DNA of 20,032 nucleotides from a virus. Shown piece after piece: positions 9,238-10,690 of the stretch; within the stretch, counting starts at the first letter, position 1; each line of letters begins with the position of its first letter. The notes beneath the pieces were generated by a model that saw nothing but the letters and a program-made list of their open reading frames with translations, did no database searches and was not told where the DNA came from. The stretch lies in IMG/VR virus record IMGVR_UViG_3300030329_004114, positions 1 to 20,032 of that record; one strand, given 5' to 3'. The position numbers were made by a program, and so were the translations under genes.

Positions 9238-9720
9238 ATGGCTATTTCGACATATGTCAAAGTAAAAAGGGACGGAACGCTTGTTCTCAAGGATTCGGGT
9301 GGAGCAAACACGTACACCCTTTCATATGAAGACGGAGATATAAAATTCGACAATCCAAAAGCTGAGCAAGTGGTCATCATGGATCGCGGTGTTTTTGCTG
9401 GTGTGAGAAAAGGCAACGATCAAGCGATCACCGGTTCATTCACCGTGAACTTCAGACAATGGGCGAGCGCGGCGACTGAAAATCTGTGTGATGTCTTGGA
9501 CGGTGTCAACAGTGCCAGCAGTTGGACAAAGGTTAACACAGCATACGAACAATTCAACCTTGATGCCGTGTTCACAATCGCGGGCGGTATTGATGGCACA
9601 GACAGCGTAGCCACGCTTTCAACCTGCATTTTTGAGTGGAACTTTGCCGAGGGCGACCCGGATAAATTGAGCGTCACCTTCACCTGTTACGAAGGTGCCG
9701 TCTATACCGGCCCAGCATAA
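9238..9720 (+). CDS. Major tail (tube) protein, predicted
   Basis: A 160-aa protein beginning MAISTYVKVKRDGTLVLKD and rich in beta strands. It includes YTLSYEDGDIKF, AITGSFTVNFRQW, a long loop, then CIFEWNFAEGD and DKLSVTFTCYEGAVY. The paired strand pattern in which a GSFTVNF strand is answered by a late KLSVTFTCYEG strand is like the tube fold of siphovirus tail proteins. It lies between the neck genes and the tail-chaperone pair, the normal place for the tube gene. A purine-rich AAAAGGAAAAGGGAG precedes the ATG by about 7 nt, fitting a highly translated protein. The next gene is a second candidate tube or tail-surface protein. Confidence 0.65.
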   Translation: MAISTYVKVKRDGTLVLKDSGGANTYTLSYEDGDIKFDNPKAEQVVIMDRGVFAGVRKGNDQAITGSFTVNFRQWASAATENLCDVLDGVNSASSWTKVNTAYEQFNLDAVFTIAGGIDGTDSVATLSTCIFEWNFAEGDPDKLSVTFTCYEGAVYTGPA

Positions 9721-9734
9721 TATAGGGGGATAAA

Positions 9735-10106
9735 ATGGCATACGCATCAACGGTCACGGTAACGAGACACGGCGATAGGGTGAAGGTCACAGTTGCAGAA
9801 ACGGACGCTGGAACTACGGCCGAGGCTACAATTGAAAGCGGGATCAGATACCTCAAGCTGATCAGTGTGGAACAGGATCTCACTGCGGGCTCTGCGGCCA
9901 CAGTTGCCCCTTCTGTAAGCACAAAGACGGGCGGCACGGCGGGGGATGGTTTGCTCTACAGTGCAAGCGCATCGGCAGGGGCTTTGAATGCTGGGCTTGA
10001 CGTGTCAATTTATAGTGCAGACGGCAAGCTCTACCACAAAGCCAACCCAAACACAGGGTCAAACAACTCAGTCACCACGGTGTATCACTTCAAGACGGAC
10101 TGGTAA
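9735..10106 (+). CDS. Small structural protein next to tail tube gene
   Basis: A 123-aa protein that starts MAYASTVTVTRHGDRVKVTV and then has TIESGIRYLKLISVEQDLTA. A Thr/Ser/Gly-rich middle (VAPSVSTKTGGTAGD, SASASAGALNAGL) leads to the end SIYSADGKLYHKANPN followed by TTVYHFKTDW. The composition is that of an exposed beta-rich virion protein. I recognise the N-terminal YASTVTVTRHGDRVKV pattern from phage structural proteins of unknown role. GGGGG sits 5 nt before the ATG. It could be a tail-tube decoration or minor tail protein, or the real tube with the upstream gene in a supporting role. The stop is directly followed by the next ATG. Confidence 0.6.
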   Translation: MAYASTVTVTRHGDRVKVTVAETDAGTTAEATIESGIRYLKLISVEQDLTAGSAATVAPSVSTKTGGTAGDGLLYSASASAGALNAGLDVSIYSADGKLYHKANPNTGSNNSVTTVYHFKTDW

Positions 10107-10496
10107 ATGAAGACAATCAAAATCAAACCGATCGGAAAAGTGCACGTGAAAGCTCCGGATAACTGGTGCACGGTGGCAGACCTTTCTCAAGGCTGGTCTA
10201 GAATCGCAGACAATGACATATTGCAGACGCGCGTGTGTGCCGCCTCAATTGGCATGGTTTGGGATCATGACCTCAACAAACAGAAGATGCCTCGATATGA
10301 TTTCAGCCGTGGCGATTTGTTCTTGTATGGCACCGCATGCCAAAACCAACTCCATCAAAACGGGGTGAAGCTCGATCAAATCTTTGCGGGCGGGATCAAG
10401 GTTTTTGGCTGGCTTCAGGACATCTTCCCCACCTATGAGGATATTGAAAAAACTGCGGATTTTTCCGAAGCGGACGAGGCGCAAGCGACCTCTTGA
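10107..10496 (+). CDS. Tail assembly chaperone, 0-frame part (gpG-like)
   Basis: A 129-aa protein immediately before a -1-frame ORF and the tape measure gene, the standard place of the gpG-type tail chaperone. It contains NWCTVADLSQGWSRI, a helical middle with QTRVCAASIGMVWD, and an acidic C-terminus (PTYEDIEKTADFSEADEA). These chaperones coat the tape measure protein during tail assembly and are absent from virions. The ATG follows the previous stop with no gap and no strong ribosome site, so translation may be coupled. The identification depends on order and on the -1-frame partner; sequence likeness to lambda G is not evident. Confidence 0.65.
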   Translation: MKTIKIKPIGKVHVKAPDNWCTVADLSQGWSRIADNDILQTRVCAASIGMVWDHDLNKQKMPRYDFSRGDLFLYGTACQNQLHQNGVKLDQIFAGGIKVFGWLQDIFPTYEDIEKTADFSEADEAQATS

Positions 10497-10690
10497 GCCT
10501 CCGAGTTGATCGAAGCTGGGGTCAAGATCCTGGCTGGCTCTTGAGCCTTGATCCGCCAACACAAATCAAACTGGTCGCTGAATATTTAGTTTCGAACGAA
10601 TCGCCAGAGCACGCAAAAAAACAGATCAAAAGAGCAAAACGGGACAAGATGAAACGCATCATTGAAAGGCGGGAATCAAGGGGGTATTGA
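10493..10690 (+). CDS. Tail assembly chaperone, -1-frame extension (gpT-like)
   Basis: This 65-aa stretch from TTG 10493 contains SWGQDPGWLLSLDPPTQIKL, then VAEYLVSNESPEHAK and a basic helical end (KKQIKRAKRDKMKRI). The W-G-x-DPGW-x-LSL-P-x-x-Q pattern is common in the second half of gpG-GT tail chaperones. The frame is open only after a stop at 10445-10447, so a -1 shift must occur between 10448 and 10493. The alternative is re-initiation at TTG 10493, which overlaps the 0-frame stop as TTGA. No canonical slippery heptamer lies in correct phase. T TTT TCC (10460-10466) is the nearest. There is no ATG start. Its stop overlaps the tape measure ATG (TGATG). Confidence 0.65.
   Translation: MSLRVDRSWGQDPGWLLSLDPPTQIKLVAEYLVSNESPEHAKKQIKRAKRDKMKRIIERRESRGY
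10680..10684 (+). promoter_or_regulatory. Ribosome binding site deciding the tape measure start
   Basis: GGGGG stands 5 nt before ATG 10690. This spacing is the same as at four other starts in the window, so ATG 10690 is preferred over the adjacent in-frame TTG 10687. Confidence 0.65.

Follow-up and report, generated by a model that had tools for sequence, protein, structure and literature searches.

Gene order and the overlap

The window, which is the whole stretch of DNA that was analysed, is a 20032-base virus record from a phage known solely as environmental sequence. Its genes include, in order, terminase (PHROG_2 match, E 7.4e-15), probable major tail protein, ORF 9735-10106, chaperone ORF, -1-frame ORF and tape measure gene. 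Upstream of the chaperone pair is the major tail protein gene, a weak assignment, with ORF 9735-10106 in between; downstream of the pair comes the tape measure gene.

9238-9720, + strand: probable major tail protein gene; weak PHROG_117 match (E 0.019), and a homologue precedes the chaperone pair in relatives
10107-10496, + strand: predicted tail assembly chaperone, 0-frame product (gpG-like, 129 aa); homologues equally placed in relatives, model mean pLDDT 87, weak resemblance to HK97 2OB9
10437-10441, + strand: weak Shine-Dalgarno (SD)-like GAGGA, 15 nt upstream of the heptamer; anti-SD duplex -5.6 kcal/mol
10457-10463, + strand: putative slippery heptamer G GAT TTT in 0-frame phase; equivalent place and phase in 20/24 loci, another slippery heptamer in the remaining 4
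10463-10690, + strand: -1-frame extension (75 aa plus stop) of the predicted fusion chaperone, gpT-like; -1 frame kept in 24/24 loci, residues conserved before TTG 10493, dual-coding site pattern
10493-10496, + strand: TTGA overlap of a TTG with the 0-frame stop, probably no start site; the TTG is not conserved as a start, and initiation here would interrupt the first long predicted helix
10690-12237, + strand: tape measure protein gene; PHROG_1533 tape measure protein match (E 2.6e-5)

At 515 aa the tape measure protein is rather short, and its ATG at 10690 overlaps the -1-frame stop as TGATG. ORF 9735-10106, between the tail protein and chaperone genes, is without significant family match, and L029 is its sole relative matched at E 0.01 among the loci compared.

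The 0-frame ORF (10107-10496) ends with a TGA stop at 10494. The open stretch of the -1 frame begins at 10448, just past a TGA at 10445-10447, and ends with the TGA at 10688-10690. These limits agree with a preliminary description of the sequence, which was also right that TTG 10493 overlaps the 0-frame TGA as TTGA and that A AAA AAC at 10447-10453 is in the wrong phase. The same description held that the -1 frame has no ATG and that TTG 10493 is its only start-like feature. In fact, a second TTG is found at 10541 and an ATG at 10649, the latter unfit to start the domain because it is too near the end of the frame. The description further reported no canonical heptamer. The putative slip site, GGA-TTT-T in the window, is indeed not of the strict X XXY YYZ class, but the in-phase G GAT TTT at 10457-10463, one codon upstream of the T TTT TCC that it named, had been overlooked. 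The 0-frame codons across this heptamer are GCG GAT TTT TCC, and 30 nt separate its end from the 0-frame stop. A plain ORF list gives only the 65-aa TTG frame here and hides the predicted 194-aa fusion.

Relatives of the chaperone pair

Neither viral contigs nor named phages yielded a relative when searched directly with the 0-frame protein of the window. No relatives were found in named phages for g17, g18, the 0-frame proteins of loci L025, L032, L070 and L015, the window tail protein or the L056 extension. Relatives were reached by protein homology, via terminase and tail-protein alignments and then chaperone alignments. One scan used a peptide pattern that included the Asp-Phe of the site and no codons; it added one new locus, L060. 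Together, 23 further loci carry an equivalent pair, giving 24 with the window, or about 23 distinct loci since L033 and L034 are 99.5% identical. The 20-sequence alignments leave out L034, L016, L022 and L028.

Several contigs fell outside the 24. L004/L038, L017-L019, L024, L027, L040, L043 and L044 showed no pair after the tail protein, in most cases because the contig stops there. Also outside are L023, in which no pair was seen, L071, and a set without a tail-protein or chaperone match (L002, L003, L005, L006, L009-L014, L020, L021 and L026). L046-L055, L057, L058 and L061-L069 are contigs already counted, and L059 is the same contig as L045.

A heptamer at an equivalent place

In 24/24 loci the second ORF overlaps the first and lies in the -1 frame, which supports the earlier proposal of a tail-chaperone pair with a -1-frame second part. 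Comparison of related loci for conserved heptamers, one of the checks that the preliminary description had suggested, revealed an in-phase slippery heptamer at the equivalent place in 24/24 loci, 15-75 nt before the 0-frame stop. The heptamer is G GAT TTT in 20 loci, A AAT TTT in 1 (L031), G GGA AAC in 2 (L041 and L070) and A AAA AAG in 1 (L039), the last four being of the strict class. One 21-locus scan sought just these four heptamers (G GAT TTT in 17/21), and G GAT TTT was present in 3/3 further loci. General-rule scans, together covering 24 loci, returned identical sites. Secondary candidate heptamers were GGTAAAT (L031), GGAGGGA (L070), GGAGGGC (L042), TTTTTTG (L039) and, far upstream, AAAAAAT (L030).

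Synonymous resampling was used to estimate how often such heptamers arise by chance. Some qualifying heptamer occurred in the window overlap in 12% of 1000 resamplings; taken alone, the window is therefore weak evidence. With the protein held fixed, a qualifying heptamer is expected in about 6/20 loci; it was observed in 20/20, loci that share ancestry. The per-locus chance ranged from 3% to 77% and was 67-77% in L042, L056 and L039. TTT is used at the site even though it accounts for 6-17% of Phe codons in the GC-rich L008, L025, L060, L007, L042 and L015. The combined codon-usage probability is ~10^-15.7 over 11 representatives, with lineages treated as independent though they are partly related. 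The base preceding GAT, which is silent in the 0 frame, is G; it is A where AAT follows.

Slippage might involve a single tRNA on T TTT (10460-10463) regardless of the P-site codon, a reading that takes in the T TTT TCC (10460-10466) named in the preliminary description. T TTT is present in 21/24 loci, and tetramer sites function in bacteria (PMC4066793). However, the silent base completes GGA or AAA in all 21 of these loci, with a third-base probability of ~10^-4.7 over 11 representatives, and the remaining 3 loci, which lack the T run, carry full heptamers. T TTT TCC is in phase as described, but six different codons follow TTT (ACC, ACA, ACG, TCC, TCT and TCA), and it is G GAT TTT that is conserved as the putative slip site. 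Furthermore, a block of P-site re-pairing cut frameshifting to 36-40% in pea enation mosaic virus (PEMV) (PMC4737148). Slippage of a single tRNA is improbable on this evidence.

Conservation of the -1-frame protein

In 20 aligned -1 proteins G11 is invariant and R7 and D14 are nearly so. All three lie upstream of TTG 10493, which encodes residue 16. F5 of the -1 frame is likewise conserved, but it falls within the heptamer. The first long predicted helix comprises -1-frame residues 9-23 (model pLDDT 84). The extension past the heptamer is 70-77 aa in 18/21 loci, with 68 aa in L070, 46 aa in L041 and 116 aa in L039, and the 0-frame tail past the heptamer is 5 to 25 codons. The longest tail of the set is that of L007 (17483-17567), where the 0 frame extends 75 nt beyond the heptamer into the conserved -1 domain.

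Site variability was compared in two ungapped groups of 6 and 3 loci. Pooled, third positions of the 0 frame were variable at 158/239 sites upstream and at 5/18 sites in the overlap (p 0.0018), whereas second positions, silent in the -1 frame, were variable at 52/241 upstream and 9/18 in the overlap (p 0.017). By group, the third-position test gave p 0.006 in the larger group and a marginal 0.065 in the smaller, and the second-position test gave p 0.29 and 0.018, respectively. Sites in the overlap appear to vary as dual coding predicts; because the overlap is short this serves as supporting evidence only. What the loci are shown to conserve is the -1 placement of the second ORF, together with the heptamer and the protein encoded in the -1 frame.

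Start codons and possible re-initiation

Re-initiation could accompany frameshifting, with both the fusion and a free C-terminal domain produced, at a minimum in the loci whose start overlaps the stop. This combination overlaps with frameshifting at G GAT TTT as an explanation instead of excluding it. A start in the -1 frame overlaps the 0-frame stop in 8/24 loci, as ATG in L025, L045, L008, L031, L041 and L007 and as TTG in the window and L029. However, the overlapping starts are not all at a homologous position, the Met or Leu that they encode belongs to the -1 protein alignment, and in each of 6 loci tested the SD pairing is either poor or at an unsuitable distance. We give the combination a slim chance.

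In five loci (L025, L045, L008, L031 and L041) the ATG overlaps the stop as TGATG or TAATG and could release a free C-terminal domain.

The preliminary description had also raised stop-start re-initiation as a replacement for frameshifting. Ribosomes ending at TGA 10494 would restart at TTG 10493 and produce a separate 65-aa protein. The TTGA overlap is real in the window, and besides the loci with an overlapping start there are 6/24 in which the first start lies 14-23 nt past the stop (L056, L015, L070, L016, L022 and L028). In 10/24, however, no ATG, GTG or TTG occurs until 59-110 nt after the stop (L030, L032-L037, L060, L042 and L039). The overlapping ATG of L007 falls inside the conserved domain, and in the window the conserved -1 residues and the helix begin upstream of TTG 10493. 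SD-to-start spacing is usually 5-9 nt; the sole SD-like GAGG before TTG 10493 ends 13 nt upstream, beyond this range. Because start positions differ (8 overlapping, 6 near, 10 distant), re-initiation is unlikely as the shared mechanism of the loci, and this poorly supported proposal is highly improbable for the window.

An indel from sequencing or slippage during transcription of the T run, in place of any programmed ribosomal event, has negligible probability. Nothing beyond the split ORF favors it, the -1 relation is identical in 24/24 loci on different contigs, and the T run is just 4-5 long, compared with the T runs of over 8 that PMC3711429 gives for transcriptional slippage.

Candidate stimulatory elements

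No stable RNA structure was detected downstream of the window heptamer by pseudoknot-free folding (z 0.13). Downstream folding of 15 loci gave z values between -2.49 and 0.93; L056 alone surpassed every one of 200 shuffles, and 12 shuffles equalled L045. With a covariation term of +0.31 over 8 sequences, RNAalifold lent no support to a structure.

Bacterial -1 sites use an SD spacing of 10-15 nt, and SD-like pairing is located 10-15 nt upstream of the heptamer in 17/19 loci. The GAGGA duplex of the window was equalled or beaten in 272/500 synonymous resamplings and by 77/372 windows of the same gene. None of the 19 loci (0/19) has an SD-like element beyond synonymous resampling, the lowest fraction being 118/500. 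The shared position is explained by the amino acids encoded there, often E-E-V or Q-E-V, from which SD-like sequence is already expected.

Chaperone identity and fold

Searches of Pfam and PHROG with 20 members returned no chaperone family match. A Pfam match to methanol dehydrogenase beta in one relative (E 0.0018) was taken as chance.

A Foldseek search of the PDB with the 0-frame model found no match at E 0.001 or better, and the HK97 tail assembly chaperone 2OB9 was at rank 39 (E 9.6). VIA-align of the model with 2OB9 gave Z 4.2 and an rmsd of 4.0 over 85 residues at 11% identity, second of 6 rows; this weak fold resemblance is too slight to prove homology. In BFVD, a viral library, an uncharacterised protein of a marine virus matches best (E 3.1e-4), and several tail assembly chaperones are among the weaker rows. 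For the -1 domain model no PDB row exceeded Z 3.5 among 25 chains compared. The fold evidence for chaperone identity is suggestive only.

The top VIA-align row is 5ir0 (Z 5.1), ORF19 of a Vibrio cholerae PICI-like element, a protein of unknown function that may be chaperone-like.

Proposed mechanism

The comparison of loci argues for lambda-type -1 frameshifting at G GAT TTT, which would yield chaperones of 129 and 194 aa; we estimate the probability of this reading at roughly 0.88. Most ribosomes would read the 0 frame through to TGA 10494 and produce the 129-aa protein. A minority would slip back one base on G GAU UUU (10457-10463). In the A site the Phe tRNA would re-pair perfectly, UUU to UUU, while in the P site the Asp tRNA would re-pair imperfectly, GAU to GGA. 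Slipped ribosomes would resume at UUC 10463-10465 and continue in the -1 frame to 10690, producing a 194-aa fusion in which 75 -1-frame residues follow 119 from the 0 frame. If the two forms act as their lambda counterparts do, the 129-aa protein would coat the tape measure protein, and recruitment of the major tail protein would fall to the fusion. The occurrence and efficiency of slippage and the role of the two products in tail assembly are inferred.

The preliminary description expected a departure from the lambda-type mechanism. This expectation was not upheld, because tandem -1 slippage at a conserved heptamer is the lambda-type mechanism. Most likely the locus uses that usual mechanism with a less common slip site and involves no new way of starting a gene. 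A chaperone pair without a Pfam or PHROG match can nonetheless be identified by its conserved frameshift site.

A more elaborate model seems very doubtful. It supposes a phage lineage in which G GAU UUU is the standing slip site, working with little or no RNA structure through A-site UUU re-pairing and upstream SD-like codons, and a subclade in which stop-start overlap also frees the C-terminal domain. If it were true, the subclade would make three products from one gene pair.

Comparison with known systems

The gpG/gpGT scheme of lambda (described in PMC5009743) likewise has a two-part gene before the tape measure gene, with the second part in the -1 frame. The lambda heptamer G GGA AAG (PMC7618472) is close to the G GGA AAC of two distant relatives, L041 and L070. 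The window differs from lambda in its heptamer, G GAT TTT, in showing no detected similarity to named phages or chaperone families, and in that its products are predicted.

G GAU UUU and A AAU UUU occur both in these phages (20 + 1 of 24 loci, at one place) and in plant umbraviruses, and Dianthovirus uses the G GAU UUU heptamer too. Among umbraviruses, PEMV has G GAU UUU as a tested -1 site, and two members carry AAAUUUU instead (PMC4737148). The PEMV site departs from X XXY YYZ, and only the A-site tRNA re-pairs perfectly (PMC4737148). Umbraviruses are RNA viruses of plants and are translated by eukaryotic ribosomes; their sites have a stimulatory hairpin downstream and are followed by a stop within 0-3 nt. 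In the window, by contrast, no structure was detected, and 30 nt lie between heptamer and stop.

Frameshifting in E. coli is most efficient at motifs that permit cognate A-site re-pairing, and G GAU UUU lies outside the motif set named in the abstract of that paper (PMC4066793). No report of GGATTTT as a phage tail-chaperone site was found among the papers listed by literature searches, which omit most subscription papers and for GGAUUUU turned up mainly work on RNA viruses; in the accessible portion of PMC3483164 GGATTTT appears only within a ribosome-binding site in a table. The 'twoonefour' backward-shift motif of PRFect occurs in annotated SEA-PHAGES frameshifts, and GG-A-TTTT, with two, one and four like bases, fits this motif by its name alone (PMC10885494).
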